A DNA stretch of 64,000 nucleotides, from NCBI GenBank assembly GCA_964036045.1, contig OZ038380.1, forward strand, positions 122,158,899-122,222,898, in the 5' to 3' direction. A program made the position numbers and the translations under genes. The notes under the pieces are model-generated. The model ran no database searches and was not told the origin of the DNA. It saw only the letters and a list, made by a program, of their open reading frames with translations. Source of the stretch: Eutreptiella sp. 'Long Island Sound 2002' (taxonomy: Eukaryota; Euglenozoa; Euglenophyceae; Eutreptiales; Eutreptiaceae). Positions 18,261-40,263 of this stretch are shown one piece after another; the first letter of the stretch is position 1; the number at the start of each line of letters is the position of its first letter.

Positions 18261-18760
18261 TAACCTCTATGTCAAAGGTGGAGAAAAACTGATGCCACCG
18301 CCCCCTCCTGCCGATGGGTCCAGCTAATGTGTCCAGGTGCTCAGTGTGTCACTGCTGCAACGATTCATGATCAGTGCGCACCTGCACCTTGACGGGAGAA
18401 TTACGCAGCCGATTGCGGAATTTAAACAACGTGGCGACAATCGCATACGTTTCCTTCTCTCTAATGGACCAGCCACGCTGTCCATAACCCTCCCTACCCT
18501 GCAGCTTGGGAGAAAAAAATGCCATGGGCGCAGATGGCCAGTGGACCCCATCTGCTCAATGACCCCCCCCCCCATACGTGGAAGAGTCACAACGCAAATC
18601 AAAAAGCTGGCTCATATCGGCCTGATGCAACACCGCACCATCCCTGAAGCGGATTTTCAGCTCTTCAAAGCACCGCTTCATCTCCTCCGTCCAGAAAATC
18701 TCATTTTTAGCCGCTGCCGCCGCCTGCGGGGTCATTTCTGGGACCGATGCCATCTGTTTT
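18200..18760 (-). pseudogene. Ty3 RNase H domain, frameshifted
   Basis: Downstream of the RT thumb the minus strand reads EIFWTEEMKRCFEELK (the usual Ty3 linker), then FDLRCDSSTYGGGGH with the first catalytic Asp near 18,610. After an indel in a C/G run (about 18,560) a second frame continues with WSIREKETYAIVATLFKFRN, a TDHESL block and a FDIEVIYVKGEDHQAPDIL block near 18,220. These match the RNase H of Ty3 elements in order. It degrades the RNA strand of the RNA-DNA hybrid. Confidence 0.8.
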
Positions 18761-19144: not shown

Positions 19145-19413
19145 TCAGATCCGGTGCAAAAGCCTCTTACACTTAGTGAGAAGGTCCGCCTGACGAACTC
19201 TCAGCTGGTCCCAGCACTCGCCTACCGCTTAATCACCCACTCTCTTTCCCCCAACCAGCTCGAGAAAGCTTCAGTCACTCATCTGGGCGGGAGTTGCGTC
19301 TCGAAGCATCACACGTCTAGTCTCCCCCAAAGACCGTTTTGCGGCTCGCCCAAAGGGAGGGTTGGATACCCACATGTCCTACACCATGCAGATGCCATAC
19401 CACGCCGTCATGG
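19145..19413 (+). pseudogene. NLR-B RT C-terminal fragment (upstream exile of the split ORF2)
   Basis: LSEKVRLTNSQLVPALAYRL matches the NLR-A stretch LSHTELIKLSNIQLIPILAY. A one-base shift at about 19,262-19,272 moves the homologous frame; thereafter it reads SLIWAGVASRSITRL and MPYHAVM up to the GLR-1 junction. The final HAVM continues in frame at 35,276-35,290 on the other side of GLR-1. Confidence 0.85.
19400..19413. repeat. Left target-site duplication of GLR-1 copy 1 (14 bp)
   Basis: ccacgccgtcatgg is identical to 35,276-35,289. It directly abuts the (gtttgag)n tail of GLR-1. Confidence 0.93.
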
Positions 19414-19436
19414 GTTTGAGGTTTGAGGTTTGATTT
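19414..19436 (-). repeat. GLR-1 3' tail of TCAAACC heptamers (copy 1)
   Basis: On the minus strand the element ends AAAATCAAACC followed by two further heptamers, the last one incomplete, directly at the TSD. Copy 2 ends in the same way at 46,735-46,756. Short tandem tails of this kind mark LINE 3' ends made by target-primed reverse transcription. Confidence 0.85.
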
Positions 19437-19470
19437 TGCGGGTACTAGACGCCTTTCGGCCCCGGGGGGC

Positions 19471-19489
19471 CACCTGGTCGGGCCAGGTG
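19471..19489 (-). other. Conserved stem-loop near the GLR-1 3' end (copy 1)
   Basis: CACCTGG-CCCGA-CCAGGTG on the minus strand forms a perfect 7-bp stem with a 5-nt loop, about 35 nt from the tail. The same hairpin is at 46,681-46,699 in copy 2. It is a candidate RT recognition structure, inferred from position and conservation. Confidence 0.75.
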
Positions 19490-19718
19490 ATATCCTCCCC
19501 ACCGGGGCCTAGTGGGGGGCCCTCCAAGACGCACCTCCTGCCTGGTGGCGGAGTCCCCCGGGTCCACAGAGCTCGGAGCCCCGCCCTTCCCCGGCGTCCC
19601 CGTTTCGCCACTCCCTGGTCGGTGCATCAATTCGCAGCCGTGGCTGCGGGCGCTTACCCACTGCGTCGCCCCCCTAATGCGTGGTCGCCCGGGGCGCCGG
19701 CGCCCCCGGGCCCGTGCT

Positions 19719-19735
19719 ACTGGCTTGTCGCCAGT
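19719..19735 (-). other. Second conserved stem-loop of the GLR-1 3' UTR (copy 1)
   Basis: ACTGGC-GACAA-GCCAGT on the minus strand is a 6-bp stem with a 5-nt loop, identical at 46,435-46,451 in copy 2 and surrounded by well-conserved sequence. Confidence 0.65.
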
Positions 19736-20989
19736 GGGACCCCCTTGGGCTGGCGCGGAGGCTGCCTAGCCTAGGGGTTGGGGCGTGGCGCTGTGCGTCA
19801 CTACTGCCTTGGCGGGTGCAGTGCCCCTTCCGTGTGTGCCCGGCGCTCGCGGCCGGTTCGGGGGGGGTTCGGGCCGGTGCCTGGTGTTGTGTCTCCCCTT
19901 CTTCCCCCTTCCCGCCCCGCGTGTTCCGCGCTGCGTGTGGCGGGCCGTCCCGTCCGGGTGTCCCTTACCCTCGCTCGCTGGTACGCCATTCCATGCGGTC
20001 TGTGCGTTCCGCGCGCTCGGTCCGGTTGCCCTTCCGGTAGTCCCCGCGTGTCCTTTTCGTGTGTGTGCGCTCGCGCTCTCGCGGTGTCCGCTCCCCGCTG
20101 GGTGGTTTGGCGCGCGCATCTCGCGTGGTCCCGGCACTGGGCGCTGGTAGGGCCGTTCCACGTGGTCCGTGCCCCTCCGCGTGTCCTGCCCCGGTCCCGT
20201 GCTCCGTCTGGCGTGCTTGGGGGGGGGCGGTCCGGTCCCGGTTCCCCCCTACTTGGCTTGGGGTTGTGGGGGCGGCGGCAGGGCGTCCCCGGGGGGGTGC
20301 CTTCGACCGTTGCGTGGGGCGTTTGGGGTCTTGCGCTCCTCCTCCCCCGACTGCCCGTCCACTGGGTGGGCTGTCGGGGTCCGCGTTGTGGGTGCGGGCG
20401 TGCGGTTGTGGGGGCCCCGCTCTGTTCCCGTGGGGGGGAGAGAGGTGTCGACTTGGTGTCCAGGCGCCGGTCCGCCGGATTCCCATGACGAGCCCGATGC
20501 GCACGGAGCTTCGCTCTGCGGGTTGCGAGGGGGGGTTGGGGTGACCGTGGCTGGAGTGGTGCACCAATGTTCCGGTTCATGGCCCAGCAGAGCACCCCTA
20601 CTGCAGGCTTACACTTAGCACAGGGGGAGGGGGTTGCGGGCGCGTTTGTTCTGTGACCCGGGTGCCAGTGTATCTCAGAAGGCAGCCGCCCTGGAGGTAG
20701 CGCACCCGGCGCGCGCCGCAAAGGAGCTGGTTCGATCCCCGTGATCGGTGGTCTCCCACCGATCCCTTCGAATACCGGACGAGGCCTCCCGTCGACCTGT
20801 TCGAGTACAGGTGACGGTGCGCACTGCTGCAGGGGTGGGTGGCTCCCATGTGTTTTGTTTTTCCAGGGTGGGGGGTAAAACGAACGAGACCTCCACCCGA
20901 TCCACCGGTATCGGTGGTGGTGCGAGCTGCTGGAGGGGGGGGTGGTTCCCACGTCGCCAACTAGAGAGCTCTACGTGCAGGGATCCCAG

Positions 20990-21066
20990 GAGCACCAACG
21001 CCTGGGATCGAACCCCCGCACTGGACGATTGAAGACCGACGCTCTCACTACTGGGCCGCATGAGTC
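20990..21066 (-). other. tRNA-like stretch with Pol III B-box match
   Basis: The minus strand has GGGTTCGATCCC, an excellent B box. About 38 nt upstream is TAGTGAGAGCG, which resembles an A box with one mismatch. The intervening bases do not fold into a convincing cloverleaf, so I do not call a tRNA gene. It may be the head of a tRNA-derived SINE. Confidence 0.3.
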
Positions 21067-21217
21067 TCTTACGCGACTTAGGGGTGCCGTCGGCTATGAA
21101 TCCAGTCCCGAGGGCGGGGCTGTGCGTTGTGAAGCGTGTTGCGCGTGCCGGGAGGCCCCAGTCTACGTGTACGGGGCCGGGACAGGGCCGGAGGGGGCTG
21201 GGTGGGGTGCAGCACCA

Positions 21218-21385
21218 TCGGATCGCCGACTGACGTGCACAGGGGTAAGAGGCGGACAGTGGCACCGCCGGACCGCCGACTGACGTGCACGGGGGCAGGA
21301 GGCGGACAGAGGCACCGCCGGATCGCCGACTGACGTGCAGGGTGGAAGAGGAGGGACCGCCGCACCGTCAGATCGCCGGCCGCCG
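21218..21385. repeat. 50-bp tandem repeat, about 3.4 copies
   Basis: ga(t/c)cgccgactgacgtgca recurs at exact 50-bp steps (about 21,222, 21,272, 21,322), each followed by a ggcggacag(t/a)ggcaccgccg-type half. A fourth partial unit follows. Confidence 0.85.
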
Positions 21386-21639
21386 CGCCCCAGAGCTGGG
21401 GATGTCCCGCCGGGTTGCCGATCCGCCCGTTGGGAGGGAGAACAGGGGAAAACAGGCCACCACGGCCTGTGCCTGCGTTTGTACACCCCCTCCCCGTGGG
21501 ATGCCCCAAGGTTGACACGCCATCTCTGAGGCGACAGGGCACTGCCTAGCGGTGTAAGCTCCGGCTGACAGGGGCGGGCTGGGGGGGGGGGGGGGGGCGT
21601 GCGCCGTTTCCTCCGGCTGTGCGGCCGGGGCGGGGCCTG

Positions 21640-23850
21640 TAGGGCGGGGGGTCGCTCTGCCTCTTTCCGTCCCTCTGCCTTCCCTGGGCAGGCAACAAAG
21701 CGGGCGTCACTGGCATCGTGCTGTCCATGGGGGGCGTGGCCCCCCATACCACTCCGGTTCGTGTTCACCCGGCTTCTCTGGGTACGATCTGTGCGGCGTC
21801 CCGGTGCGCAGGCGTGGGCCCACTTGTTCTTCGCGGCCCCCATGTGAGCCGGCGGCTGGAGCGGGGGGGCGGGTCACACTCTGGCTCCCCTCTCGGGTGG
21901 GGGGGGCCCATCCCCCCTGCCTCGGGGGGTGGGGGCCGGGGCCCCCGCGGCTGGCGGGCTGGTGGGGGGGCGGGGGGGGGGGTGTCGCGGGGCGGCCTCC
22001 CTGCTCTCGTTCCGGGCGGCGGCCTGCGGTACTCAATCCTGGCCCTCTCCGTGTCGCTGGCGCGCTCCCTTCCGGCGCGCGCGTGCGGTCGGGGCTGAAG
22101 TGCCGCCCCGGGGTGGGGGGGGGTGAGGGGCGGCCCGTGGACCGCTCCCCTGGGGGCCCCAGCTGACCTGCGAACCCCCCCTCTGTCACCTCGGAGTGGG
22201 CTGTGGTTACGGGAGGGTCATGTGGGGCGTGGCCCCCTTCGTGTTCCGTTGTGCGCGTTGCTGCGGCACGCCGGTGTGGGTTCGCGGGGGTAGGTCCAGC
22301 CGCCGTTGCCCTTACCGCGTCGCCGTTCCTCCTGAGGGTGGGGGCGCCCCCCCGGCCCTGGGGGGGCGGAGGGCAGCGCCTGTGGCTCCCCAGCTGGGGT
22401 GGGTGCGGGGGGGGGGGTAGGGGGGGCCGCCCCCCCGCCCGCTCTCGGGCCTGCGTGGGAGGGGGGGGGGGGGAGTGGGGGGGGGCCTTTGGTCCCCTGG
22501 CGATGCCTCCTGTCGGCCAAGGGGGGGGGGGCGGCTTGGCAGTCCTGGCCCCGGGGGCCAGCCATCGGCCAGGGGGTCGCGCCCTTCCCCCGCCCCCCTC
22601 TACCGAGAACCGGATTCTCGCGTAGGCCCTCTCCGGGGCCCCTCATCCCCCAGCCGTTGTCGCGCGGCGCTGGCCGGCCGGGGGTGGCCGTGAGGGTTAG
22701 CGGTCAGTGGTTAACGGGCTGCGGGGCAGCAGGTTTCCCCCCGCGATTGTTGTCTCCGCACTCCCTCCCGCGGGAGGTGGCGCGCCGCTTTCCCTGGGCA
22801 GGCAACAAAGCGGGCGTCACTGGCGTCGTGCTGTCCATGGGGGGCGTGGCCCCCCATACCACTCCGGTTCGCGCCCACCCGGCTCCTCTGGGCACGATCT
22901 GCGCGGCGTCCCGGTGCGCAGGCGTGGGCCCACTTGTTCTTCGCGGCCCCCATTTGAGCCGGCGGCTGGGGCGGGGGGGCGGGTCACACTCCGGCTCCCC
23001 TCTCGGGCGGGGGGGGTCCATCCTCCCTGCCTCGGGGGGTGGGGGCCGGGGCCCCCGCGGCTGGCGGGCTGGTGGGGGGGCCGGGGGGGGGGGGTGTCGC
23101 GCTGCGGCCTCCCTGCACTCGTTCTTGGCGGCGGCCTGCGGTACTCCTTGCTGGCTCTCTCCGTGCCGCCGGCGCGCTCCCTTCCGGCGCGCGCGTGCGG
23201 ACGGGGCTCAAGTGCCGCCCCGGGGTGGGGGGGGGGTGAGGGGCGGCCCGCGGACCGCTCTTCTGGGGGCCCCATCTGACCTGAAACCCCCCCTCTGTCA
23301 CCTCGGAGTGGGCTGTGGTTACGGGAGGATCATGTGGGCTGCAGCCTCCTTCCTGTTCCGTTGTGCGCGTTGCTCCGGCACGCCGGCGTGGGTTCGCGGG
23401 AGCAGGTCCAGCCGCCGTTGCCCTTACCGCGTCGCTGTTCCTCCTGAGGGGGGGGCGCCCCCCCGGCCCTGGGGAGGCGGAGGGCCGCGCCTGTGGCTCC
23501 CCTGCTGTGGTGGGCGCGGGGGGGGGGGTTGGGGGGCCGCCCCCCCGCCCGCCCTCGGGTCTGTGTGGGGGGGGGGGGGGTTGGCGGGGGCATGGCAGTC
23601 CTGGCCCCGGGGGCCAGCCATCGGCCAGGGGGTCGCGCCCTTCTCCCGCCCCCCTCTATCGAGAGCTGGATTCTCGCGCAGGCCCTCGCCGGGGCCCCTC
23701 ATCTCCCGGCCGTTGTCGCGCGGCGCTGGCCGGCCGGGGGTGGCCGTGAGGGTTAGCGGTCAGTGGTTAGCGGGTTGCGGGGCAGCAGGTTCCCCCCCGC
23801 GCTCGTTGTCTCCGCACTCCCTCCCGCGGGAGGTGGCGCGCCCTCGTACG
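21640..23850. repeat. Two tandem copies of a 1.11-kb unit in the GLR-1 3' UTR
   Basis: ctgtccatggggggcgtggc occurs at 21,721 and again at 22,831, an offset of 1,110 bp. The whole unit matches, including ggttagcggtcagtggtta near 22,695 and 23,750. Copy 2 of GLR-1 has the unit once (around 43,985-45,500, opposite strand). Confidence 0.92.
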
Positions 23851-23932
23851 TCGTGCCATACCGTGGGGGGGGCGCGGGTCGGGGGACCCAGCCCCCCCCC
23901 CCCCAAATCTCCCGTACCCGCCGTCTGGGCCT

Positions 23933-26201
23933 TCACCTGCGCCGCCGCTTGTGTGGGGGCTGGGGCTGCGGCGGCGGCGGGTTGTGCCGGCGGTAGCGCC
24001 AGTGGGCGAGGGCGCTACGCAAGGCCCGGGGGAGCCAGTTGTTGGCGTCCACATCCGTGACCCCTTCCAGGAAGGCCGGCCACGTCGGCTCCCTGTCGGG
24101 CCACGCCGCCCGGATCACTGACCTGAGGACCCTCTCTTGGTCCTCTGGGGCGGCCCACCCCCCCGGGGGTACCTCTCGGTTTCCTCCGTCCCTCCGGAGG
24201 AGCACGGCATCGAAGGGCCGGTTCCGCGACCTCCTGGAGGTCCCCTGGTTGGCCCAGCACAACCACCCGTACACTTCCCCCACCAGGGGGAGGCTCTCCT
24301 CCCCCAGCGGGTCCGGGACCGCGCCCCAGTCCCGGTCCCATGGCCGGCCCTCCTCCGCCCCCCGTGCCGGCCCCCCTCGCTGCCCCTGCGCCTGCGGCGC
24401 CGATGCCGCGCCCCGTCCCCCCTCCGCCGAGGCCATCCGCGCCGGCTCTGCCCTCGGCGCGGGGGGGGCTTGCTGGTGCTGGTGTCGTGGGGGTAGGGGG
24501 GGGACGAGCTCGCCGGCGTCAGGGTCGATGTTGTAGAGGTGGTGGTGGTGGTGGTGGTGGTGGTGGTGGGTGTGGTGTGCCGGCATCTGTTGGATGCCGG
24601 GGGGGATGCACCTCACCGGCTGCACGTCCGGCTGCGGGGGCGCTCCGCCCTCTGCCCCCCTCCCTTCGCCCCGCCCTCCTCCCTGGGATCCCATGCCCCG
24701 TCCCGACTGTCCCTTGGGGCCCGCGGCGCCCTTGCCCTTGCCCTTGGGTCCCTTTCCAGCCCCCTGCCCGTGTCGCGGGTCCCGCCTCCCGTCCCCCACG
24801 CCCTCGCCCGCTCGCTCTCCCAGCCCCCCTCGTCCTGCCCCCTGCCCCTGGGTTCCCTTCCTGCGCCCCTGAGCGCCCTTCCCGTGCCCTGGCCCCTCCC
24901 CGGCCCCCTGCCCATGTCGCGGGTCCCGCCTCCCATCCACCACGCCCTGGCCTGCTCGCTCTCCCACCTCCCCTCGCCATGCCCCCTGCACCTGGGCTCC
25001 CTGCCTGCGCCCCTGCGCGCCCTTCCCGTGCCCTGGCCCCTCCCCTGCCCCCTGCCTGTCGCGCCGTCCGCTGCTCCCCTCCCCCCCGCCGCTGCGCCCT
25101 TCCTGGACCACTCGCCGGGCGTCCAGCTGCCTTTGCAGCTGCGGCAGCGTGACGCCCGGCGGCGAGCGCTCGCACGTCGGGGGGCGGACGTGCCGCTCCC
25201 GCCCCGGGAAGAAGGGCTTGGGGGGGAACGGCTTGGGGGGGCTGGTGTGGGTGTGGGTGGGGTTGGCGTGGGCGCGGTACTTCGCGGTCTCCCTGCCCAC
25301 TGCTGCTGCTGCGGCGGCCGCCGGCGAGGCGTCCGCGGCCCGTGCGGGGTTCCTCCCCCGCTTGCGCGGCGTGCTGGGGGTCGCGGCCGCAGCCCCTCGC
25401 GCGCCGTCCTCGCTCTCCTTCGCTGCCGTGGCGGCCGCTGACGAGGCGCCCGTGGCTCGTGCGGGTCCCGCCGGGGCCGCGGTCGCAACCCCTCGCGCGC
25501 CCTCCTCGTTCTTCTTTTGCTGCCGCGGCAGCCGCCGGCGAGGCGCCCGTGGCCCGTGCGGGGTCCTTTGCCCGCGTTCGCGGCGTGCTGGAGGTCGCGG
25601 CCGCAGCCCCTCGCGCGCCCTCCCCGCTCTCCTTCGCTGTCGTGGCGGCCGCCGACGGGGCGCCCATGGCCGCGGTCGCAACCCCTTGCACGCCCTCCTC
25701 GTTCTCCTCTGCTGGCGCGGCGGCCGCCGGCGAGGCGCCCGCGGCCCGTGCGGGGTCCGTCGCAACCCCTCGCGCGCCCTTCTTGCTCTCCTCTGCGGCT
25801 GCGGCAGCCCTCGGCGATGCGTCCGGCTCCTGCGCCGGGGCTGCCCCCCTTGCCGGCGGGGTGCCGGGGGCCGCGGCCGGGGCCGCGGCGTGGCTCGCCG
25901 CGGTCTCCGCTTCCTGCGCGTCCGGGCGGGGCGGGGCGGCGGGGGCGGCCGTCTCGGCTGGCCCAGGTTCCCGGGCCGGCGGCGGCGGCCCGACCAGCAC
26001 CGCCGCCTCCGCCAGCCTCCGCTCCTCGCGCTCCGCAAGGGTCTCCCCCGTCCACTCCGGGGAGGAGACGGGGGAGCGGGAGCGGAACCGGCGGTGGTGG
26101 CGGTCGTCCCGCTGGGGGGACCTATCGGAGTCTGCCATCACTGTCACTCTGGTAGGCATGCGTGGTGGCAGGCGCGCCCTTCCCTCTACCCCCTGGTGCA
26201 T
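23933..26201 (-). pseudogene. GLR-1 ORF4 (Ala/Arg/Gly-rich linker plus conserved C-terminal GGW domain), copy 1
   Basis: The ATG at 26,201 overlaps the ORF3 stop (TGATG). The N-terminus has RDDRHHRRFRSRSPVSSPEW, an Arg/Ser-rich stretch. Next come degenerate Ala-rich repeats of about 100-115 bp (25,280-25,900), basic Gly/Gln/Lys repeats of about 142 bp (24,700-25,060), a His run from a CAC microsatellite near 24,540-24,570, and a compact C-terminal domain (about 24,340-23,960). That domain has LVGEVYGWLCWANQG, FDAVLLRRDGGN, PPGGWAAPEDQERVL and ALAHWRYRRHN, and ends in TGA at 23,933. The N-terminal and C-terminal parts are in different frames; the shift lies in the repeats and is at another place in copy 2, so it is decay. 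I know no family with this domain. GLR-2 has a homologue. Confidence 0.75.
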
Positions 26202-27434
26202 CAGTGCCGTGCCGTGGGCAGTGCCGTGTGGTGTTCTGCGGAGGGGAGGGGGGGAGGGGGTGGGGGGCCGGCTGTGGCGTCAGCCCCGCACGGCCGGGGG
26301 CCCGCGGCCATCCACCGGCATTGGGAGGGGAGGCGGGGGAGCCACGCGGCCCACGCGTCGCGCCACAGCTCCCAGTCTGGGGCGGGGCCCAGGGCCCTGG
26401 GCCCCCGGGGGTCGTCGAGCGGTGTCGGGGGCAGCCGCACCAGGTGGACCCCCGTAACGGCGGTGACCTCCTGTGTGCGCAGGAAGGTGTGTACTCCGTC
26501 CCGCGCCGCGGGCGCCGGGAGGGAGGCACGGGGTACGGGTGTTGCCCCATAGAGGTGGGTGGGGGTGATCCCCAGGATCCGCCCCGGGTCCCCGCGGGTC
26601 GCGACGACGAGGAGGAGGAGGGGGGTGCCAGGGCACTCCTGCCAGAGGACCTGCCCCCTGTGCTGGGCACCCCTGGTCCTGGAGAGGGGGGGGGACAGGT
26701 CTGGGTTAGCCCAGCCGCGGGGCGCGTGCGTCGCCGGTGGGAGGGCGGGGCACCAAGTGGGCTCCCTGGGAAACGTCTCGTAGACGACGGCGTACGGGGG
26801 GGTGGGCCCGGTGCCGTCGTACACCGGGTTGGTCGGCCGGGGGCGGGCGGACGCCTCGTCCGCGCCTTCCACGAACACCGTGACCTCGCCCACCTCCAGG
26901 TCCTCGTTCGGTGGGTGTAGAAGGTGGAGCGCCGCATCCAGCTCGGACACTCCTCCCGGGTACGTGGCCCGCGCCTGGTTCAGGTACGGGGCCGCGTCCC
27001 CGGGGTAGCGCGTCCTGAGGGCGTGCAGCAGGGCTGGGGCGCTACTGCGGAGGGACATGGCAGACCCCGCTCCCGTCAGCCAGAGGGTGTCCCCCATGGA
27101 GAGGGGCCGGCCCGACCGATTGGACTCGCGCCACTCCATCCAGTGCCCGTAGAGGGCCGCCTCCGGGCTGATGAGCCCCTGGCCGGATGGCGTTCACGAT
27201 CCGGTGCATTGCCGGGAGCAGCGTAGGGGCCCCTGCTCCGTTCAGGGCGCGGACGGCCGGGAGGGCGGTCTCGTTGAGGAAAGCCCTCGCACTGCCCTCC
27301 AGGTCAGACCGTGCGGCAGCGTGCGCTTCGTGTGCCTCCGCCACCGCGTCCGCCACCAGGCCCCGGACGGCCGCCTTCTGCGCTCTGCGGCGGGCCCTGG
27401 TGTGCCCCGGCCCATCCCCCCGTCGGCGTGGCAT
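26201..27434 (-). pseudogene. GLR-1 ORF3 (uncharacterised, about 410 residues), copy 1
   Basis: This starts at the ATG at 27,434 after a 40-bp gap from the polyprotein stop. The first 85 residues are in one frame (Arg/Ala-rich, then LNETALPAVRALNGAGAP). A one-base insertion at about 27,181, shown by comparison with the intact copy 2, shifts the rest. The remainder carries SMGDTLWLTGAGSAM, GGVSELDAALHLL, LLVVATRGDPGRILGITPTH and GVHLVRLPPTPLDD, and stops at TGA 26,203-26,201, overlapping the ORF4 start. No family is recognised. Conservation in copy 2 and, distantly, at 54,155-55,280 shows it is a real gene of the element. Confidence 0.78.
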
Positions 27435-27473
27435 GGTGCTGCGGGCTCTGCAAAGGGCAGCGGCGGGTGGGGG

Positions 27474-29093
27474 TTAGGGGGCGAACACGTGCGACAGGTG
27501 CGCAACAGATGTGGGGTCCCGCAGGTGCACGTGGATCCACAGAAGGGCAGCGCCCGCGGGGCCCGCTTGTTCGTGCGAGGGGGTGTGTGCCCCCTCAATG
27601 CGCCGGCGCAAGGCCTCCTCCTCTGTGCGCCTGCGCGGGCCTGCGGGAGGTTCGGGCCAGGGGCACGCGGCTACCTGGGTGCACCGCGCGCACCTGTTGG
27701 CGCCTGTCGACGCTGTGGAGGACACCGTGTCACATTCTCCACAGAGTCGGCAGGTGTGTGGGAGGTGGGAGGGCGGCGACCAAGGGTCGAGATGGCGGAG
27801 CCAGAGGTCGTCCCACCTCTGTCGGAGGGGGTCCCAGATCTCCAGCAGGCGGGCGTGGACGCGGCGCCGGTAGTCCTTGCCAAGCATCTTCCGCTGGACC
27901 TCCTGCCACGTGTCACCGGGGAGGATCCCGTGGTCGTGGAAGGCGGCGATGAGGTTGTCCCACGTCGGGCGGGGGTGCCCCTGGGGGGGGCTCACCATGT
28001 AAACGTGGCGCCCGGTGAGGTGGGGCATCAGCGCGTCCCATTGGCACCCGTTCGCGGTGTCTCTGTGGAGGAGGGCCAGCAGGGTGCCGTCCGCGACTGC
28101 CTCCCACCCCACTCGCAGCCCTTCGCAGCCGTCCAGCTCCTGGCGCAGCGCGGCTGCAATGCCGGTGGGGAGCATGAGGAGCAAGGGCCCTTGGGTGTCG
28201 CCCAGCCGGGACAGGGCGTCGTCGTATACCGGCCCCCGAGCTTTGAAGTGCGCCACCGTGAGTTGGGTGGCCCCGTCCTCTGGGGGGTGCCACCGGACGG
28301 TGGCCGCAGCGTGTCCCCACGTGCGTATCTCCGTAGCCCGGAGCACGTTGGCGGTGTGAAGGACGATGCGGGGCGGGACGGGTGTCCTGACGAGTGATGA
28401 CACGTCCCCAGTCCATCCCGTTTGCGGCCCCGGGGCCGCCTGCAGCCATTCCCCCGTCGCCGCATCCCACGGGTGGTCAGGCCCCGCCCCGCGGATCATG
28501 GTGGGTCTCGGCCGGGTGTCCGGCCCCCACCACCGGAGCGGGATGGCGGCGTATCGTTGCGCAGGGGTCTCCGGGGCGCGCGTGGCGGCGCACCAGCGGC
28601 TCCACTCCCGCGCCCACTCCTCCCCCACGATGCGGGCCTCCCATGCGGTCATGGAGCCGCGCCCGATGATCCACGGTGGGAAGAGGGCGTCTTGTAGGTG
28701 CCTCGAGAACCCCCCCGGCAGGTCCTGGTACGGGTGGGGGCTCTCTTGGGGCGGGCACTCCAGAGTGCCATTCACAACACGGAGGGAGGCTACGAAGTCC
28801 TTGTCAGGGCGCGGGGGAGGGGGAGGGTGGTCGCCCTCCGCCTCAGTGAGGCACCGGTGCGCCCGGGCCGCCGCGCTCTGGGGCTCGCGGAGGAGTTGCT
28901 CCAGCCGGTGGTTGCGAAGCTCCCACGCGAAGTCCCCCAGCCGGAGCATGTGGTGGAGGAAATCGTCCACCGAGGTCCCTCCCGGCGGGTCGTATCGGGT
29001 TATGGCGCGGAGCTGCGCCTCCGCGTCCTCGGGCACCAGTCCGGAGCAGAACACCTCCGTCCACGTGGCGCCTGCGGAGCGCCACGAGGCCAC
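27474..29093 (-). pseudogene. GLR-1 polyprotein, C-terminal extension with zinc cluster
   Basis: This continues the polyprotein frame after an in-frame TGA at 29,096-29,094. About 540 residues follow to TAA at 27,476-27,474. The start has a WTEVFCSGLVPEDAEAQL block; the middle is unremarkable globular sequence; near 27,690-27,755 lies a C-rich module, CRLCGEC and 14 residues later CARC. The end has GAALLWIHVHLRDP. The same three landmarks occur in the same order in GLR-2 (51,620, 52,020-52,140, 52,370-52,430). Typical LINEs end soon after RNase H or the finger, so this is an additional module of unknown role. I looked for a restriction-like endonuclease signature and could not make a convincing match. 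Confidence 0.7.
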
Positions 29094-31142
29094 TCACAGG
29101 GCCTTGTCCCCAGGTGGGAGGTGGCGGGCCGCCTCGTGTACCGTCTGGCGGTAGTGGGGCCAGAGGAGCCGTGAGTGGGTGCAACCGACGTGCATGTGCA
29201 CCGGGGTCTCCTCCGGGCCGCCGCAGAAAAGGCACGGTTGTGGGACGATGGCGACGCCGGAGAGCCGCTCCTTCCGGACGCGGAGCCTGCGCTGCACCGG
29301 CGTGTGGCCGTCTCGGGCCTGCAGCGCCCGGCGGTTGGTGGCCGCCGCGGTGAGGTCCCGGGCGTGGACGTAGGCCGTGGCGTGGGCCGCGCCCAAAGGT
29401 GTGTGCCCCGGGTGCGTCAGCGCATGGTCCGTCTGCGCCCGTTGCGCGACCTCGCCGAGCACCCGCATCGTGGGGGGCCGTAGATCGAGATGGCCGTCAC
29501 GGCCGGCGACAATGAGTTGGGCGTGGCCAGGGTCCGGGGGCGTGTTCTGCAAGACGGTGTCCTGCGACGCCGCCCAGTCCGCCTTGTGCAGTAGGGCGTC
29601 ACTGTGGTGCGAGGTGGCTCGGACGTACCAGAACTGGTGCCCGGCGTGTTGCCCCCGCGCGCACAGGCCGTCCCGGAGCCATCTCAGGGGCATCTGGTTG
29701 ACCACCTTCGCTGCGCCTGCGGGGACCCCCGTGGTTTGCTCGCGATCGGCGTGCCGCAGGAGGTGGAGGATGACTTCGGCGTCCACCGTGTGGACCCATG
29801 GTCTGTGTGCGCCGTAATGTAGGGGGAGGGAGGCGGCCACCCCCTCCCCGTCGGGCACCGTGCCCCAGAGGGCCACCGCCCACGTGCGGGTGAGGTCGGC
29901 GGCGAGAGCGACGCTGGTGGCGTGTTTGCAGGGCCCGCCCCCGGACGCGTCAGAGGAGGTGTGTCCCCAGGCCTCCGGGATCCAGTAGTATCCGGTGGGG
30001 CTGAGCCACCCCGCGTTGAGGTCGGCGGAGTGCCACCGGACGTCGGGGTGGCTGGGGGTCAGTTGGTCCACGCTCAGCGCCCTGGTGTCGCCTGGGCTGA
30101 TCGCCGGGTGGTCGTGCAGCCGGATCTCCGCTCCGGCGACCGTGCTTGCCCAGGACCGTAGCGCCGTCACATGTTCCTTGAGCCACGCCGGGCCCCCGCG
30201 CTGGTGCACCACCAGGTGTCCCGTGTCCTCCGGATGGTCCTCCAGCGCGTGCACCGCCATGTGTGGGTCGTGCGGCACCCCCGTAGCCACCAGCAGGGCG
30301 GTGCCACGGGGGAGCCCACGGGGTTCGGGCTGGCCTGCCCCCACTTGCACTATTACCCACTCGGCCCGGAGCTGCGCTTGTCCCGTCGCTTGGGTGCATT
30401 GGTCGTCCGTGGTCACCAACCACAACGGCGTCGGCGCGTGGGGCCGGGGGCGTAAGGGCTCTGGCCACGCCACGTCCGCGTTAGGCTCTTGGTGCTCGCT
30501 TTCCGCGAGTACGTCGCGGAGGATGTACATGAGGGCTGCTGGCAGGTGGTACGCCGCCTCCCGCGTGGGGGGGGATAGGCCGTCCCGGCGGCGGTAGCCC
30601 CCGACGTGGAGGTGCAGGCCGTCCGGGGTCACCCGTGGGCCGGTGTGGGCGTCCTGCTTAGCCCTCGTGGGGTGGACGAGTCTCAGGCGGGGGTCCCGTG
30701 TGCCGGTGGTGTGGAAGAGGTAGGCCAGGGCATCGCGCCACCCGGGGTGGTTGGTGGGCTCCTGCTCATGGCGGCAATAATGGAGGTGTTTATCGGCGCA
30801 TTGGTTGAGGCACTCCCGCACCGCCGTCGGCCACAGATCGTCGTTGTCGGGGAAGGGGTGGCGTGGCCCGTGGTGCCCATGCCACGGCGTTGTGTGTGGC
30901 ACCGTCAGGCGGCACGTGTCGTGGTGTCGCAGCTTGGCGGTGCGCAGCGTGACCATTTTGCCTGGCGGGGACTGTAGTTGGACATGGGCCGCCCTGGGGC
31001 ACGCAATGGGGTTGTACATCCCCACTCCCAGGGCGGCCAGGGCCCGGGGTATGCGGTGGACCCAGTCGCCTCCCGCCAGAGTTGCGAACTCTGGGACGGG
31101 GTAGTGCACCTCGGGACATATTCCGTGCGCGCCGGCTATCTC
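29094..31142 (-). pseudogene. GLR-1 polyprotein, RNase H and zinc-finger region
   Basis: This is in the same frame as the RT C-terminus, entered after an in-frame TGA at 31,145-31,143. After a region of about 380 residues without a named domain comes a degenerate RNase H: SSDASGGG (first Asp, about 29,941-29,967), TVDAEVILHLL (about 29,780) and HHSDALLHKADWAAS (about 29,570-29,600). A finger CLFCGGPEETPVHMHVGC lies at about 29,185-29,240, the spacing seen after RNase H in many LINEs. The segment ends at TGA 29,096-29,094, with coding sequence continuing in the same frame. Confidence 0.75.
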
Positions 31143-34129
31143 TCAGAACATCTTGGTGACCTCGGCGCGCACGGAGGTTGCGCGGTGGTGGACGAGTGTA
31201 CCCACGAGGGCCACCGCTGCTTGCTGGCACCGCGTGGGCACCCGTGTGAGCCCCAGGGTCCGGTCATCCTGCAGGCTGTCCCGCGAGGAGTCGAAGGCGT
31301 ACCGCGCCCTGTCCTTCGCGACCTGGACCCTGATGTGGTCCAGGTGGCGTGCAGTGTCGGAGTCATCGGCGATGAAAGGGGCGACGTACTGCGTCACCCC
31401 CCCGAGGATCGCCAGGATGACGTCCTGCACCACTTTCGGTGGCGCGAGGGTGTTAAGGCACCAGTGGTGCACTGCCGCCAGGCGTAGCCGGTGCTTGCGC
31501 TGCAGGGAGAACTCCCCGTCCGGCTGCAGCTGGAGTCCCAGGTAGGGGACGGAGTCCGCCGCTGGTCCCCAGTACCACGGGTTTTCCAGGTGGTGGCCAT
31601 GGCGCACTTGCGGGGGTTGAGCTCCATGCCCATCATCCCCAGGTACGCGGCCACCGCCTCAACGCCCTCGACGAAGTGCTGCAGCGTGTGGGCCACCACC
31701 AGCAGGTCGTCGATATGGGCCTGGATGAGGCCGTGCTCGGCCCCTCCCGGCGGGCGCAGGCGGTGCCCCTGTGCCCTGAGCAGGGGCTCCAGGAGGAGCG
31801 CGTACAGCAGGGGGCTCTCGGGGTTGCCCTGCCGGACGCCGCGTAGCATGTAGACGGGCTGTGTTAGCCCGTGTGCTGTGACGATGCGCAGCCTGGCGCA
31901 CGTGTGGAGGAAGAGCAGGAGGTCAATGACGTCCGGCGGCACGGAGAGGTGGCGCAGGATGAGGTGGAGGGCGCCGTGTGGGGCGGTGTCGAAGGCCTTG
32001 CGGGCGTCAAAGGAGAAGACGTAGTTGGGCCTTCCCCGCTGGAGCTGCCTCTGCGCCATGAACAGCGGGGGGCCTGTGTTGGAGCCAGGGAGGGCCCCCT
32101 GCTGCCAGTCGCTGACCACCCCGTGCCGTGTGAGCACCTCCGTGATGCGCTGGGTGAGGGGGCCCGTGAGCAGCTTCATGTCCAGCTGGCCCAGGGCTAT
32201 GGGCCTGTAGTCGTCCAGTCTGGCAGAGCCCGGTACCTTGGGGCTGAGCCAGATGTGCGCGTCCCTCCAGTGCATCGGCGGCGGGGCGCCGCGGAGGATG
32301 GCCCGGTAGGAATGGACCAGGTGCCACTGGACGGGTGCCGGGAGGGCCGTGATGAAACGGGCCTCCACGTGGTTAGGACCTGGGGCCTTGCTATCGGCCT
32401 TGTCCAGGGCGGACTTCAGGTCCTGCATGGAGTACTGCTGGACCTGTGTCCAGGCCCCCTCAGGGACCCGGGGGACGTGGCGGCCGAGGACCGCCTGGAA
32501 ACCCAAGAGGTCCACCGGGCGTTTGTCATACAGTTCTCGCCAGATGGCGCGAACTGCGAACATCACGTCGTGGGCCTCCGTGAGGAGCGTTTGGGTGTTG
32601 GGAACCCGCACGTTCCAGAGGCCTGACGGGCCTGGGGCCTCTACCTCTATGGCCCCCCGCACGGCTTTCCACCGCAGGGCGATGTCGGGGGCGTGGCGGC
32701 GCCAGAAGTCCTTGATGGCGCGCTTGCGGTCTGCCGCCAGGAGGGCGCGGAGCTGGCGAATGTCCTCCTCGAGGGCGGCTGCTTGCCTCTCCAGCTCCTC
32801 CTGTAGCTGGCCCTGCGTGGTCGGGCGGAACCCGGGCGACACACCCTGAAGCTCCTCCGTGAGCCTGAGCGCCGCCTCGGACCGGATGCCATGCCTGGCC
32901 GCGTCCGTCTCGTACGCTGTAGGGGCGCGCGCTGCCAGGGTGTCATAGCGGAGGACCGCTGCCTGGAGCTGCTTTCCGCTCTCCGGGAGGTCCCCCTCCG
33001 CCGGGTCCGTTCCCGCCGGAGACGGCTGCCGGCGTCCCACCACGCGCGCCAGGGCGTCATGCGTCGCGTGGAGGTGTTCGAACACCTTGTCCACCGCGGC
33101 CGCGGGCATGGACCCGTAGTCGTGCTGCTCTGCGGGACCCAGCCAGGGCGCCAGGGAGGGTTCATCCTGCGCGGCGGCGACCGCCGCCCACAGGCAGTGT
33201 TGGACGGGCGCGGCCTCGGCGTCGTACGGGAGGAGAAGGCCCTCCGTGTGGCAGTAGGGGGTGGGCATCGCCGCGCGCCCCGCTGCGCTGAGGAGACCAG
33301 GCAGGGCCAGGCGGACCGGGAGGTGGTCCGAGCCGACCACCTGGGGGTGTGCCATGCCGCGGGCCCAGACGCTTTCCCGCAGGGACCACGGCAGGAGGGG
33401 CTCGCTGACCAGGAAGGTGTCCACCCTGTGCTGGGACGGGTGGAGCGTGGGGGTCATGTCCTCCTCGCCGCCTGCCGCGGCCCTTCGGAAGCCGCAGGCC
33501 TCCCAGCCCGCTCGGAAATGCTCCGTGGCCGTTTTGGCGGGGACATCCATGTAGATGTTGGTGTCGCCGGCGATGACCACCGGGTGCCTCCCGCCGAGGC
33601 TGCGTGCCGTGGCATACATTTGTATGTCGGCCCAGAACGCCGCCCGTCCCGCCCACGGGGAGCAGCCTGCTTGCGGCCCGTGGACGTTGATGAGGGTGAG
33701 GCCTCCCCCGTCCGTGCGGATCTCCAGGGCCGCGGCCTTCCCGGGGACAATTTCCGTGAAGCTGAGCACCTCGTGCTCCGCCACGTACTTGCTGCTGACC
33801 GCGGTGAGGAGGCCCCCCCCTCTCGAGGTGGAAGTGGCTCCCGTCTCCGCCAGCCGGCTGCTGAAGTAGGCGGTGTACCCCTTGTCCCGGAGCGCCGCGG
33901 CCACGTGCATCTCCTGCGCCCTGGTGGCGATCCCCGTTTCCTGGAGCATGATGGCAAAGCCCCCCTCCTGGGGCAGCATGCCGGTGATGAGGTGCTCCTT
34001 GTCGGTGCAGGCCGCCGTCCCCCGGCGCCGCCGGAGTGTGTCCCGGAGGGACCGGTCTGGCGGCACGAGGCCGTTGCGCAGGTTCCACGAGAGGAGCCAC
34101 AGGGCGTCGCCCGTCGTGTCCTCCTCGAG
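31143..34129 (-). pseudogene. GLR-1 polyprotein, endonuclease and reverse transcriptase
   Basis: The frame opens at 34,129, directly after ORF1. Endonuclease motifs in order are LLSWNLRNGL, IMLQETG, VIAGDTNIYMD, HRVDTFLV and GSDHLPVRLAL (34,100-33,300). RT motifs are DYRPIALGQLDMK, SFDARKAFDTAPHGAL, GVRQGNPESPLLYALL, HIDDLLVVAH (instead of the usual F/YADD) and MELNPRKCAM (32,230-31,600). A one-base loss in an A4 run at 31,582-31,585 shifts the frame; VPYLGLQLQPDGEF (RT motif E) then continues to TGA 31,145-31,143. In a live element it would nick the target and prime cDNA synthesis there. No ATG lies between the ORF1 stop and the first endonuclease motif. Confidence 0.9.
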
Positions 34130-34133
34130 TCAG

Positions 34134-35078
34134 CTATCCCGCATCGGCAATCGCCGGGTTCGCCGGCGCCGCCAGGGCATCTGGGTGCGCGGCATCCGCT
34201 GAGCCCGTTCCCAGCGGGGCCCACAGGGGGGCCCAGGGGACCGGGGGAGCCAGGGGGGCCAGGGGGGCCAGCCCGGCGGGGATGGACATGGACCCTGGTG
34301 GGGCCGCACCGCCGGCCCCTGGGGCCGCTCCGGATGCCTCCTCAGCTTCATCTGCGTGGTCAGCTGCCTGGGGCGGGGGGCGCCGGGTGTACGGGGCGTG
34401 CCACGGGGATCTCCGTGCTCTCCCCTGCAGGATGTTGGCGGCCGCCTCCTTGTCGTCCGCCGGGGCCGCAGCCTGCACCGCGTGCCACGCCAGGTGTTCC
34501 AGCATTGCCCCGCTGGTGTAGTACTTGTCCGCACACAGGGGGCATTTCGTCGGCTCCGTGGCCCCTCGCGCCGGGGGGAGCGGCACTGACTTCCGAATGG
34601 CGCCCTCCGCCGCTGGTTCGAAGGGCAGGTTGGCCAGCGGCACCGTGTGTGGTGCCAGCGTGCGGCCCGGGGCCGCCGCATCGAGGGCCCGCGTCGCGGG
34701 CGCGGGCCCGAGGCCTCGGATGGCATCGCGCTGCGCGTCTGCTTGCAGCCACGTTTGCCAGTGCGTGGAGCCGATTTGGCGGCCGGGTTTGCCCCTCCAT
34801 CGCAGGTCGTGGAAGGCCTGTAGCCAGTGGTACACCGTGGTCGGGACCGCCAGCTGGAGCTCCAGGTCGGCGGCGTGCGCCGCTGCCGGCCACACTCCCG
34901 GCCTCGCCGCCCGGGCGTTGTCCTTCAGCCTGACCTGGAGCAGGAGGGCGTGGTGTTCACCCTCCCGCAGCGCCTTGATGATCATGCGGGTGCAGTCTGC
35001 CACGCGGATCACGGCTTCGGGCCCCGGCAGGCGTTCGGGGTCGCAGACGACGATGTGCGCGTCCGCCGGGCTGAACAT
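34134..35078 (-). CDS. GLR-1 ORF1 with C2H2 zinc finger
   Basis: 314 residues start at the ATG at 35,078, which follows an in-frame TGA (35,081-35,079) without a gap. A perfect CX2CX12HX3H finger, CPLCADKYYTSGAMLEHLAW plus His, lies at residues about 185-206 (near 34,470-34,530). The C-terminal third is Ala/Pro-rich and disordered. A C2H2 finger near the N-terminus is typical of LINEs that bind a defined DNA target; here it is in a separate ORF upstream of the endonuclease. It ends at TAG 34,136-34,134, immediately before the polyprotein frame. Open sequence in the same frame upstream of the TGA reaches the element's 5' end, so the true ORF1 may be longer. Confidence 0.7.
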   Translation of the reverse strand: MFSPADAHIVVCDPERLPGPEAVIRVADCTRMIIKALREGEHHALLLQVRLKDNARAARPGVWPAAAHAADLELQLAVPTTVYHWLQAFHDLRWRGKPGRQIGSTHWQTWLQADAQRDAIRGLGPAPATRALDAAAPGRTLAPHTVPLANLPFEPAAEGAIRKSVPLPPARGATEPTKCPLCADKYYTSGAMLEHLAWHAVQAAAPADDKEAAANILQGRARRSPWHAPYTRRPPPQAADHADEAEEASGAAPGAGGAAPPGSMSIPAGLAPLAPLAPPVPWAPLWAPLGTGSADAAHPDALAAPANPAIADAG

Positions 35079-35275
35079 TCAGACCACCCACTGTCGGTTC
35101 TGCTGTCCCCGTTGGGCCACCGCCAGGGTAGCTGCTGGGCGGGCGTGCGTGATTGGCCCCGCGTGGAGGTCCGGGACGTCCGTGGCCCTGATGGCGTCTC
35201 CCTGCCACGCGGCCCGTAGATGCTCCTCCTGGTCGGGGCTCCACACCAGTGTGGGGGGGTTGACCCACCCCGGTT
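35079..35275 (-). pseudogene. GLR-1 ORF1 upstream frame, possibly the 5'-truncated start
   Basis: The frame of ORF1 is open from the element's 5' junction to TGA at 35,081-35,079, with plausible coding composition (NPPTLVWSPDQEEHLRAAW). Being open to the very junction suggests that this copy lost its 5' end on insertion. The TGA is followed at once by ATG, so it could equally be a start-stop junction. Confidence 0.45.
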
Positions 35276-35289
35276 CCACGCCGTCATGG
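35276..35289. repeat. Right target-site duplication of GLR-1 copy 1
   Basis: ccacgccgtcatgg is identical to 19,400-19,413. It lies in the NLR-B coding frame. Confidence 0.93.
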
Positions 35290-37139
35290 ATTACTCCCGC
35301 CCCTCTCACTTCCAGCTCGTCCCTGAATTTTTGCGCCCTCAAGAGACCATCCTGGAACCCCGAGCGCCACCGCACAACGCACACGCACTGGGAATCAGCC
35401 AACACGGCCATCTCTTTGCTCTGCAGGCACAACACTACCTAGAGAAGAAGTCTCTCGACGAGTGGGGATGCCACGATGCCGCGGAGGCACTAACCAGGCC
35501 GCCGACCCCCGGCCTACAGCGGGTGTGGCTATATTCCGATGGCTCCTCCGGTGAGTCCGGCCATGCAGCCGCCGCCACGGCCTTTCTACCCGACAGTACA
35601 GCCAGAGTCCTATGCCTATCCTCACCGCATCCCTCTTCTCTGGGTTCAGAGTTCTGGGGGGCGGTAGCAGCCATTCGCTGGATCCACAGGGAACGTTCCC
35701 AATACGAATTATGTTTGTTGATTGACAACGAACAGGTGGTGTCCACCCTCCAGAAATGCCAAGTCTATAGGCCCAGCCCGTTCCAAGACGACACATGGAC
35801 CGTCGCCGTACACAGCGCCCTACTTCTCATCACCAACCCCCTCCACATCATGTGGATTAAAGGTCACGCCAATTTTATTGGCAACGAAATCTGCCACCAT
35901 TTCTCTAAATGGGCAGCTCAGAGCCTGATTTTTACCCCAGACCTCCCCCCCCCCCCCCCCCTGGGTTCAGTGGCGGTACACCACCTGCCTGTCCTCCACA
36001 AGTTTAAGGTGCAGCAATTCCGCCACCTATTGCCGCAGCATTCCCATAACAACATAGCGGTCGGCCCCAGCTTCAGCCTGTACAATAAAGCTTCCTGGTT
36101 TTTGTCCCTGTTTTTCAAACTGGCGTCCGGGTGCTACAATGTGCACGGGTACCAGTGGAGCAACATGCTTCACGACTACCACTGTTCCAGGTGCGGACAG
36201 CACCATCCCTTCGACCCTGTATCCTGCCTGGCCTTCTGCAAAGCGTTAGACCAGCACGTCCAGGCATACGTCTCTTCCTGGGGGCCCCTTTTCAGCCCCA
36301 TTGTCCTGCACTGGTGGCTCTCTGGACCCTCAAAGGCTGACCGCAGGAACTTCATGAGAACTCTGGTACCTAAGTCCCTATGCTCCTGCCTCTCCCAGCC
36401 AATCCTGGGCTCCACTCGCGCCGAGCAAAGGGCCATGCTTGGCCTAGCCCTGGAGGAACGCGTAAAGCACCTGGACAAGGCTGTCCACCAAGCACATGAC
36501 TGGCTGTGTTCGAATCCTCTCCCTCGGGACCCAATGCTTTGGGCGCACCCCTCCGACCCTCTCAACCCGCTCACGGTTTCGCACGGTGCGTTCAGTACCT
36601 CCATCCACATGCCCCCTCGGACCCGCCTCGTATACCAGCACCCCCCCACTCTCCCCAAACACGCCTTAAAAAAAACGTCCAAGCCAGCGTCAGCCAAAGC
36701 ACAACCAGCCACTCGCCGCGCGCCAAAAAACTCCAAACGCCTGTCCAGCCGCGCATCCGCACCACGCCCCCCCCCCCCCCCCCCCTCGGCCCTGCCCCGT
36801 CCTCCTCAGCACTCACGCCCACGGCCACCACAAAAACGCCATCGATCACCACAAACCCATCAGACCACAATCGTTTGGGCGCCCCCGAAGCGCGCCAAGA
36901 CTGCTCTCCCTCTCCCACCCCCACGCTCCAAGGCACGCTACCGTCAAACACGCCTACCTCTCCCCTCTAGGCCCACCGCTACTAGGTGCCCCGGTCTGTC
37001 TGCCCCTGCCCCCCCCCACTCCATTGCCTCCCGAGACATCCGAAATTTTTTCCGCCCATCCAGCGACCTTGTGTCTCCTCCTCTGGACCCCTTCAGCCCT
37101 CTGCCCCTTCTTGAAAAGCCCCCCCCCCTCACAGGGTAA
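35290..37139 (+). CDS. NLR-B ORF2, RNase H and C-terminal zinc finger (5'-truncated, open)
   Basis: This continues the split NLR-B frame with no stop for about 615 codons. RNase H residues are visible: YSDGS (35,531), SEFWGAVAAI (35,649), LLIDNEQV (35,715) and WIKGHANFIGNEICHHFSKW (35,855-35,910). Then come a finger, HCSRCGQHHPFDP...C (36,180-36,240), and a LHWWLSGPSKADRRNFMRTL block matching NLR-A. The last 180 residues are Pro/Ser/Arg-rich with C-run microsatellites. It was once the 3' half of a LINE polyprotein; without endonuclease and RT it is not functional, although its frame is intact. Confidence 0.88.
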
Positions 37140-37263
37140 ATCAGCATTCATCTAACCTTACCATCAGAGCAACCGTGTACATATCTTAATATGTTGTTGT
37201 AAATACTTTCATTTGGGGACTTCAGCCCCAGAACAAGTTGATGCGGTTAAGAACATTCAAAAA
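37140..37263 (+). other. 3' UTR and A-rich end of NLR-B
   Basis: 124 bp lie between the ORF2 stop and the TSD. They are AT-richer than the coding part and end in a short A run that merges with the TSD. Confidence 0.75.
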
Positions 37264-37280
37264 ATCCAAACTCACCGGAT
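37264..37280. repeat. Right target-site duplication of NLR-B
   Basis: atccaaactcaccggat is identical to 19,128-19,144. Confidence 0.93.
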
Positions 37281-40209: not shown

Positions 40210-40263
40210 CCTCCGACTCTGTTACTTCTTGTCGGAGCCCTTGCCTTTACCCTTGCCCTTGTC

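Follow-up and report, generated by a model that had tools for sequence, protein, structure and literature searches.

The question raised by this locus is whether an insertion within the window (the whole 64,000-nucleotide stretch of Eutreptiella sp. DNA that was analysed) represents a single LINE with an unusually large coding capacity. LINEs have one or two ORFs as a rule. We conclude that the insertion probably derives from an AP-endonuclease-type non-LTR retrotransposon that is ~14 kb in length when intact and has three ORFs, encoding proteins of ~314 (ORF1), ~2,230 (ORF2) and ~1,100 (ORF3) amino acids. Neither window copy is undamaged, and we know the intact element from predicted proteins, not from DNA.

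Copy A (19414-35275, minus strand) is a full-length but inactive LINE that ends in a (TCAAACC)n-type tail and carries frameshifts and in-frame stops. Exact 14-bp target-site duplications (CCACGCCGTCATGG) lie on its 3' side (19400-19413) and its 5' side (35276-35289), bearing out the single insertion described in a first-pass annotation of this DNA. Excision of copy A and joining of the flanks restores a continuous 676-codon frame that is similar to another LINE. The 5' UTR is ~197 nt in length (35079-35275, minus strand). Copy B (40763-46755, plus strand) is 5'-truncated within ORF3 and has the 3' terminus of copy A. It is bounded by 501-bp direct repeats (40262-40762 on the 5' side and 46756-47256 on the 3' side, 472/501 identical), which we interpret as a target duplication of exceptional length. 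An LTR element was considered and rejected because these repeats were not found beside copy A. Thus, the two copies lack LTRs, have target-site duplications of 14 bp and 501 bp and share a common 3' end, as expected for LINEs.

A 3' UTR of 4.5 kb, as annotated previously, is present in copy A (19414-23932, minus strand), but it is swollen by a 1.1-kb tandem duplication (21677-23842, minus strand; 88% over 1113 positions) and by ~1.1 kb of extra sequence. The latter stretch (20434-21570, minus strand) corresponds to 112 nt in copy B and includes a segment that appears tRNA-like (SINE-like) by eye. No tRNA was identified in the window, and Rfam gives no match there at gathering score. The 3' UTR of copy B is only 2.9 kb; thus, by our own sum, the undamaged element is about 14 kb.

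Relatives are predicted proteins from public contigs, and 230 such proteins were retrieved. The three protein searches scored only the ~7,990 candidates sharing most words, and one protein search lists 120 of 145 matches. Scans with one relative, P0122, gave no pattern match in viral contigs and 27 pattern matches, none of them a relative, in genome contigs (records of the window's own genome were possibly excluded from both).

ORF1 (34134-35078, minus strand; 314 codons) contains one C2H2-type motif, C-x2-C-x12-H-x3-H, which was read by eye and agrees with the C2H2 ORF1 reported initially. ORF1 runs into ORF2 in 4/230 retrieved proteins. The 5' part of ORF2 (31397-34129, minus strand) encodes an AP-type endonuclease and a reverse transcriptase. 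Exo_endo_phos (PF03372) is matched at 1.4e-9, above the Pfam cut-off, and the SWN, QET, GDTN and SDH endonuclease motifs are present; the N-terminal location of the endonuclease is that of an APE-type LINE. Among PDB sequences, the endonuclease matches exodeoxyribonuclease III only at E 0.047. RVT_1 is matched at 3.6e-20, also above the cut-off, and a family profile matches 10 PDB sequences (by name R2, LINE-1, reverse transcriptase-like protein and RNA-directed DNA polymerase). A frameshift occurs near 31.6 kb, and the last ~70 codons of the 31397-34129 frame are out of frame. The next frame (29094-31658, minus strand; stops at ~31143 and ~29094) encodes an RNase H-like region and a zinc knuckle.

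The RNase H-like segment includes five candidate catalytic residues, D-E-D-H-D, with plausible spacings (35/21/58/10), and these are kept in 16/18, 15/17, 17/18, 17/18 and 17/17 of the proteins matching the surrounding pattern. Pfam gives no match to the segment up to E 1. Of the domains of the polyprotein proposed previously (endonuclease, reverse transcriptase and RNase H), the first two are supported above Pfam cut-offs, and the third is a candidate with fitting motif spacing. The zinc knuckle scores 16.4 bits against zf-RVT, below the 27.5-bit Pfam cut-off. The ~2,218-codon frame proposed for the polyprotein is not open in copy A, but ORF2 and its tail form a single 2,181-residue frame in P0122, from MLPQ onward. 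P0122, which matches at 95% over 100% of the part used in the search, stands for a cluster of 438 members; cluster members here may include several assemblies of one genome. An ORF2 start of the form M-T/A-GDALWLLSWN is found in four proteins (P0019, P0031, P0097 and P0125). The ORF2 frame of copy A has no ATG before 33,979, i.e., none ahead of the first endonuclease motif.

The ~540-residue C-terminal extension of ORF2 noted in the first-pass annotation is present as 539 codons (27474-29093, minus strand), and in P0122 it is in the same frame as the rest of ORF2. This tail has no match in Pfam (E 0.1), including to an SF1 helicase following zf-RVT, or in NCBIfam (E 1) or PHROGs (E 1). Its best match to PDB sequences is at E 0.26, and its predicted structure has a mean pLDDT of 35. 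The composition of the tail hints at an extra nucleic-acid-binding or nuclease domain. One specific form of this idea, that the tail holds an endonuclease of the restriction-like type and thereby gives the element two endonucleases, as in Dualen/RandI, seems to us quite improbable. P0122 has a single match to R-P-D-x14-E, which we take to be a restriction-like endonuclease motif, at 1737, 124 residues past the zinc knuckle, and both R-P-D and E are kept in 8/10 proteins matching the surrounding pattern. However, the motif arises in 10% of shuffled tails (3% when only the 200 residues past the knuckle are shuffled), and the family profile matches R2 structures across the reverse transcriptase only, not across their C-terminal endonuclease. 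In addition, Pfam identifies only the reverse transcriptase, the endonuclease and the sub-cut-off zf-RVT in P0122, with no protease or other domain.

The region following ORF2 was initially assigned two additional ORFs, ORF3 and ORF4, which we treat as the halves of one ORF3. The first half (26201-27434, minus strand) has a frameshift near 27.18 kb and ends in a TGATG stop/start overlap. The second half (23933-26201, minus strand) is RS-rich and Gly/Arg-rich, with a His run and a KRRRR end, and is broken by indels. In copy B the first half (40763-41839, plus strand) stays open between the truncation point and the TGATG overlap that copy A also has; the second half (41839-43826, plus strand) is broken by indels, with the terminal stop placed as in copy A.

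Both halves are under constraint in the one pair of copies compared. NG86 dN/dS for copy A versus copy B, calculated for chosen segments with codons containing gaps or stops dropped, is 0.45 for the ORF3 half (bootstrap 0.30-0.68) and 0.60 for the ORF4 half (bootstrap 0.43-0.87). The values below 1 anticipated for both are thus found, in a single copy pair rather than in full-length open copies. The pooled ORF4-half value omits copy B 42324-42388, 42716-43124, a few bases round 43318 and all sequence after 43683, because frames shift or repeats misalign there; within the pool, the middle segment (42389-42715) alone gives 1.24 by NG86 and 0.92 by YN00. GC content varies among codon positions in phase with the ORFs, though less strongly across the ORF4 half, and shows no such phasing in the 3' UTR (segment 24650-23936 is left out of this result).

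It is extremely improbable that the extra ORFs are parts of a very GC-rich sequence that happen to be open without coding, although long chance frames are common at such composition. In 500 random sequences modelled on the same stretch (76% GC) by a first-order Markov chain, the longest frame has a median of 374 codons, a 95% point of 605 and a maximum of 817, and the longest real frames are 734 codons in copy A (part of it in the wrong frame) and 540 in copy B. Open-frame length is weak evidence at 76% GC, so the case for coding is built on dN/dS, the phase of the indels and the conservation seen in relatives. The pooled dN/dS minimum falls in the proposed frames (shifted frames give 0.77, 2.08, 1.10 and 0.88), and the first five indels between the copies in the ORF4 half are all multiples of three (3, 36, 21, 9 and 6 nt). 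Later indels in this half are mostly non-triplet (277, 1, 2, 1, 1, 1, 1 and 32 nt; also 54, 6, 3, 24 and 15). Finally, a conserved protein cluster with 171 members exists; it includes P0158 (1,104 amino acids), which spans both ORF3 halves in one frame.

A continuous in-frame junction between the halves occurs in 11 of the 22 proteins that have the ORF4 start anchor among the 230 retrieved. Because the halves are joined in frame in relatives, the element likely has three ORFs, not four, and the two additional 3' ORFs annotated previously are not upheld as separate genes. Alternatively, ORF3 and ORF4 could be separate genes, with ORF4 translated by termination-reinitiation at TGATG and the fusions being products of poly-C slippage. 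The TGATG overlap and the out-of-frame, unfused junction in both window copies are consistent with this explanation, as are P0200, P0210 and P0221, which follow the alternative frame ahead of the junction, and P0223, which begins at the ORF4 ATG. We consider it unlikely, given that the 11 in-frame junctions are clean and include the largest junction-spanning cluster (that of 171 members), that fused junctions occur in both RVT- and RIT-MADS subtypes, and that the junction consists of consecutive prolines whose number varies. The idea that the 3' block (ORF3 plus the 3' UTR) came from an independent element or a captured gene, and was attached to the LINE in one copy, is highly improbable and largely refuted. 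Copy B comprises only this block, but a start inside ORF3 is expected for 5' truncation, and ORF2 runs into ORF3 in 4/230 retrieved proteins, from contigs of differing size. Neither an ORF3/ORF4 insert confined to one copy nor copies ending after the polyprotein, the outcomes that the first-pass annotation had set against its own interpretation, were seen. The common 3' end, the ORF2-ORF3 adjacency and dN/dS below 1 support its view that the 3' coding region is part of the element, as is the ORF2 extension. A single protein, P0138, places a piece of ORF3 ahead of a piece of ORF2, which speaks against this arrangement.

ORF3 has no match to any family searched, and the predicted structure of its first half has a mean pLDDT of 30. 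RSRSRSP, the eight-His run and KRRR are present in 12, 27 and 30 of 79 ORF4-half proteins, respectively. A profile search with ORF3 matched 73 PDB sequences at E <=1 (best 0.00074). We judged these matches to be spurious (His-rich constructs) because the listed stretches (60 of 73, starting at profile positions 847-901) begin at or just ahead of the His run.

By analogy with established LINE biology, we predict that ORF2, with its endonuclease, reverse transcriptase, RNase H-like domain, zinc knuckle and tail of ~560 residues in that order, cuts one strand of the target and uses the nick to start reverse transcription of the element RNA (TPRT), and that the closely spaced ORFs are translated off one RNA via stop/restart. 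With less certainty, the composition of ORF3 suggests that it would act alongside ORF1 as a second protein for RNA packaging, with a nuclear role. Its first half is presumably folded, whereas the second, RS-rich and Gly/Arg-rich with a KRRRR end, would be disordered; the protein would coat the 14-kb RNA and carry it to the nucleus. A broader proposal, which we regard as possible yet doubtful, is that the element represents a new ~14-kb LINE lineage that acquired two functional parts for which LINEs have no known counterpart, a new-fold ORF2 domain of ~560 residues and ORF3 as a second RNP protein, its halves fused or split by poly-C tract length, and that integration can use widely spaced second-strand cuts (the 501-bp target duplication). 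The 3.3-kb third ORF and the 1.7-kb ORF2 extension have been kept through apparent large-scale amplification, which implies that both help in copying. The element may show, as an experiment of nature, which abilities a LINE RNP can gain in long-RNA packaging, nuclear entry and target choice, and it is a size extreme for the completion of target-primed reverse transcription.

The I group of LINEs has the order endonuclease, reverse transcriptase, RNase H and zinc knuckle, and some members have a short-repeat tail instead of poly(A). Dualen/RandI elements include a cysteine protease domain. The element described here resembles the I group in domain order, as far as its candidate RNase H goes, and in short-repeat tail, and differs in length, C-terminal tail and ORF3. 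PMC4640811 covers the distribution of RNase H in the I group (I, R1, Tad1, Loa and others) and describes the AP-type endonuclease, reverse transcriptase and RNase H of Dualen/RandI in one very long protein. To that extent the arrangement is shared, with an RNase H-like candidate in the element described here, whereas P0122 has no protease match in Pfam, and a restriction-like endonuclease is represented only by RPD-x14-E, at the 10% level by shuffling. PMC5563155 describes TRAS/R1-type LINEs whose ORF2 has endonuclease, reverse transcriptase and zf-RVT followed by a C-terminal SF1 helicase, and Jockey-like elements with a helicase ORF that overlaps ORF2. These TRAS/R1-type LINEs and this element have in common an added C-terminal domain after endonuclease, reverse transcriptase and zf-RVT. 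In this element, however, Pfam identifies neither a helicase nor any other domain in the tail, and there are in addition an RNase H-like region and, downstream of ORF2, an ORF3 of 1,100 amino acids. Bdelloid LTR retrotransposons and Athena elements carry captured, family-specific ORF3s, several with recognisable enzymes (PMC5408684). They are alike in having an extra ORF3, but belong to other retroelement classes, and ORF3 here has no recognisable enzyme. In the part of the open literature available to us we found no description of this element, which may nevertheless have been published, for instance in Repbase or subscription journals. The reverse transcriptases of human L1 and R2 (PDB 8sxt, 8gh6 and others) are homologous to that of ORF2, with sequence similarity across the reverse transcriptase only, and the element differs from both in domain order and in its extra ORFs.

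The oversized LINE is real and most likely contains three ORFs. Its full-length but inactive copy (copy A, 19414-35275, minus strand) is bounded by 14-bp identical direct copies at 19400-19413 and 35276-35289. Copy A is one clean insertion, most likely in the ORF2 of another LINE, because its flanks, once joined, restore a single LINE-like frame of 676 codons. The right part of this frame matches RNase H (Pfam 1.5e-4, 22.4 bits, below the cut-off of 25.8), and its left part, judged by eye, resembles the post-RT region of LINEs. The target (19233-19413 and 35290-37136, plus strand) looks like the ORF2 of another LINE, with the insertion point upstream of its RNase H.

ORF1 (35078-34134, minus strand) has 314 codons and one C2H2-type motif. 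ORF2 opens at 34129 on the same strand and matches Exo_endo_phos (1.4e-9) and RVT_1 (3.6e-20) in Pfam; its last stretch (29093-27477, minus strand) is the extension of the first-pass annotation, a tail that follows the zinc knuckle. In copy A, ORF2 has a frameshift near 31.6 kb and stops near 31,143 and 29,094, and the ORF2 protein cannot be made by this copy. Among 230 predicted proteins of relatives from three protein searches (the listed ones all from 'ena'), P0122 (2,181 aa, 438 members) holds ORF2 in a single frame, tail included, with 95% identity across the whole searched part; the C-terminal half of P0122 is represented by P0123 (1,115 aa, 1,049 members). Member counts may contain several assemblies. 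The start of P0122 is called 46 residues downstream of the M-T/A-GDALWLLSWN start found in P0019, P0031, P0097 and P0125, so that a complete ORF2 would measure about 2,230 aa. The RT is homologous to those of R2, L1 and another LINE in the window (25% over 284 positions for the last). For the RNase H region, Pfam yielded nothing at E 1 or below (HMMER filters discard most matches above 0.1). Candidate RNase H-like positions in P0122 are D1357, E1392, D1413, H1471 and D1481, with spacings (35/21/58/10) similar to those of E. coli RNase HI; among proteins matching the surrounding pattern they are kept in 16/18, 15/17, 17/18, 17/18 and 17/17, respectively.

The first-pass annotation placed the 3' ORF region within the LINE. 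In the two copies read as DNA, neither outcome that it named as refuting this (a separate element, or copies ending after the polyprotein) was seen. The 5'-truncated copy B (40763-46755, plus strand) starts within ORF3 and shares the exact 3' end of copy A. More than one ORF is spanned by 9 of the 230 proteins, as a rule via frameshifts: ORF1-ORF2 by P0014, P0015, P0035 and P0065, ORF2-ORF3 by P0128, P0135, P0141 and P0148; the ninth, P0138, is rearranged.

The proposal of two separate extra ORFs, ORF3 and ORF4, fared less well, since 11 proteins join both in frame and P0158 (1,104 aa, 171 members) runs from the ORF3 start via a proline run through ORF4 to a C-terminal KRRRK. The ORF4 start anchor occurs in 22 of the 230 proteins, 13 of which also hold the ORF3 anchor; the junction is continuous and in frame in 11 of these 13, lost in P0213 and preceded by the other frame in P0200. 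Without the ORF3 anchor are nine proteins, of which P0210 and P0221 have the other frame upstream, P0223 begins at the ORF4 ATG, and six begin past the ORF4 start and are uninformative on the junction. Both window copies show the unfused phase, with a TGATG overlap at the junction, and two ORFs with coupled translation are possible. The two halves are most likely one frame; a single ORF3 with a slipping poly-C tract is the simplest reading, and the four-ORF version most likely reflects decay of copy A.

Open-frame length by itself is little proof in such GC-rich DNA. In the ORF3/ORF4 region, copies A and B share 87% identity across 2,976 aligned positions. With the proposed frames, NG86 puts dN/dS at 0.45 in the ORF3 half (bootstrap 0.30-0.68, from 357 codons) and at 0.60 in the ORF4 half (0.43-0.87, from 420 codons in chosen segments); the shifted frames yield 0.77 and 2.08 in the first and 1.10 and 0.88 in the second. 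The YN00 dN/dS in the proposed frames is 0.067/0.244 and 0.101/0.224, respectively. The middle segment of the ORF4 half (42389-42715 of copy B), taken alone, shows no constraint (NG86 1.24, YN00 0.92). Each of the first five A/B indels in this half has a length divisible by three, whereas 8 of the 13 later ones do not. GC is phased by codon position in ORF1, ORF2, the tail and ORF3, more weakly in the ORF4 half, and is flat in the 3' UTR.

Neither the tail nor ORF3 matched Pfam, NCBIfam or PHROGs families. Searches of PDB sequences gave nothing below E 0.2 for the tail or 0.07 for the first half of ORF3, and predicted structures of both were uninformative. The PDB matches listed for the ORF3 profile begin at or just before its His run and were taken as spurious. 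ORF3 may have an RNA-packaging or nuclear role, in view of the RS- and Gly/Arg-rich composition, the His run and the basic end of its second half. A restriction-like endonuclease in the tail is weakly hinted at by a single RPD-x14-E match, which 10% of shuffles also hold.

The 3' UTR of copy A spans 4.5 kb, including a 1.1-kb tandem duplication, and has a 1.1-kb stretch versus 112 nt in copy B. With the 2.9-kb 3' UTR of copy B, an intact element sums to about 14 kb. Within the extra stretch of copy A lies a tRNA-like segment (~20985-21061, minus strand), perhaps a SINE, with a GGTTCGATCCC-type box; ARAGORN found no tRNA in the window.

A 501-bp direct repeat (40262-40762 and 46756-47256, 472/501 identical) abuts copy B exactly at both ends; several of the mismatches between its two units group into multi-base changes. 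We read this repeat as the target-site duplication of copy B; its length is far above that usual for LINEs, and a tandem duplication already at the site before copy B is possible. Copy B is located among probable Gypsy-type LTR remains (17512-18348 and 37225-47981, minus strand; Integrase_H2C2 9e-13, RVT_1 4.1e-15), which include a CCHC gag-like frame recognized by eye, without a Pfam match. A further LINE-like element in several frames (9487-12915, perhaps from ~4806, plus strand) carries RVT_1 (9487-11688, 8.9e-27) and a weak RNase_H match (11692-12915, 0.00038, below cut-off). A tandem array occupies 4-1512 (127-bp unit, 11.9 copies; 382-bp higher-order unit, 4 copies), and a weak DUF659 match (60494-61027, minus strand, 0.0021, below cut-off) is perhaps a hAT-type transposase remnant.
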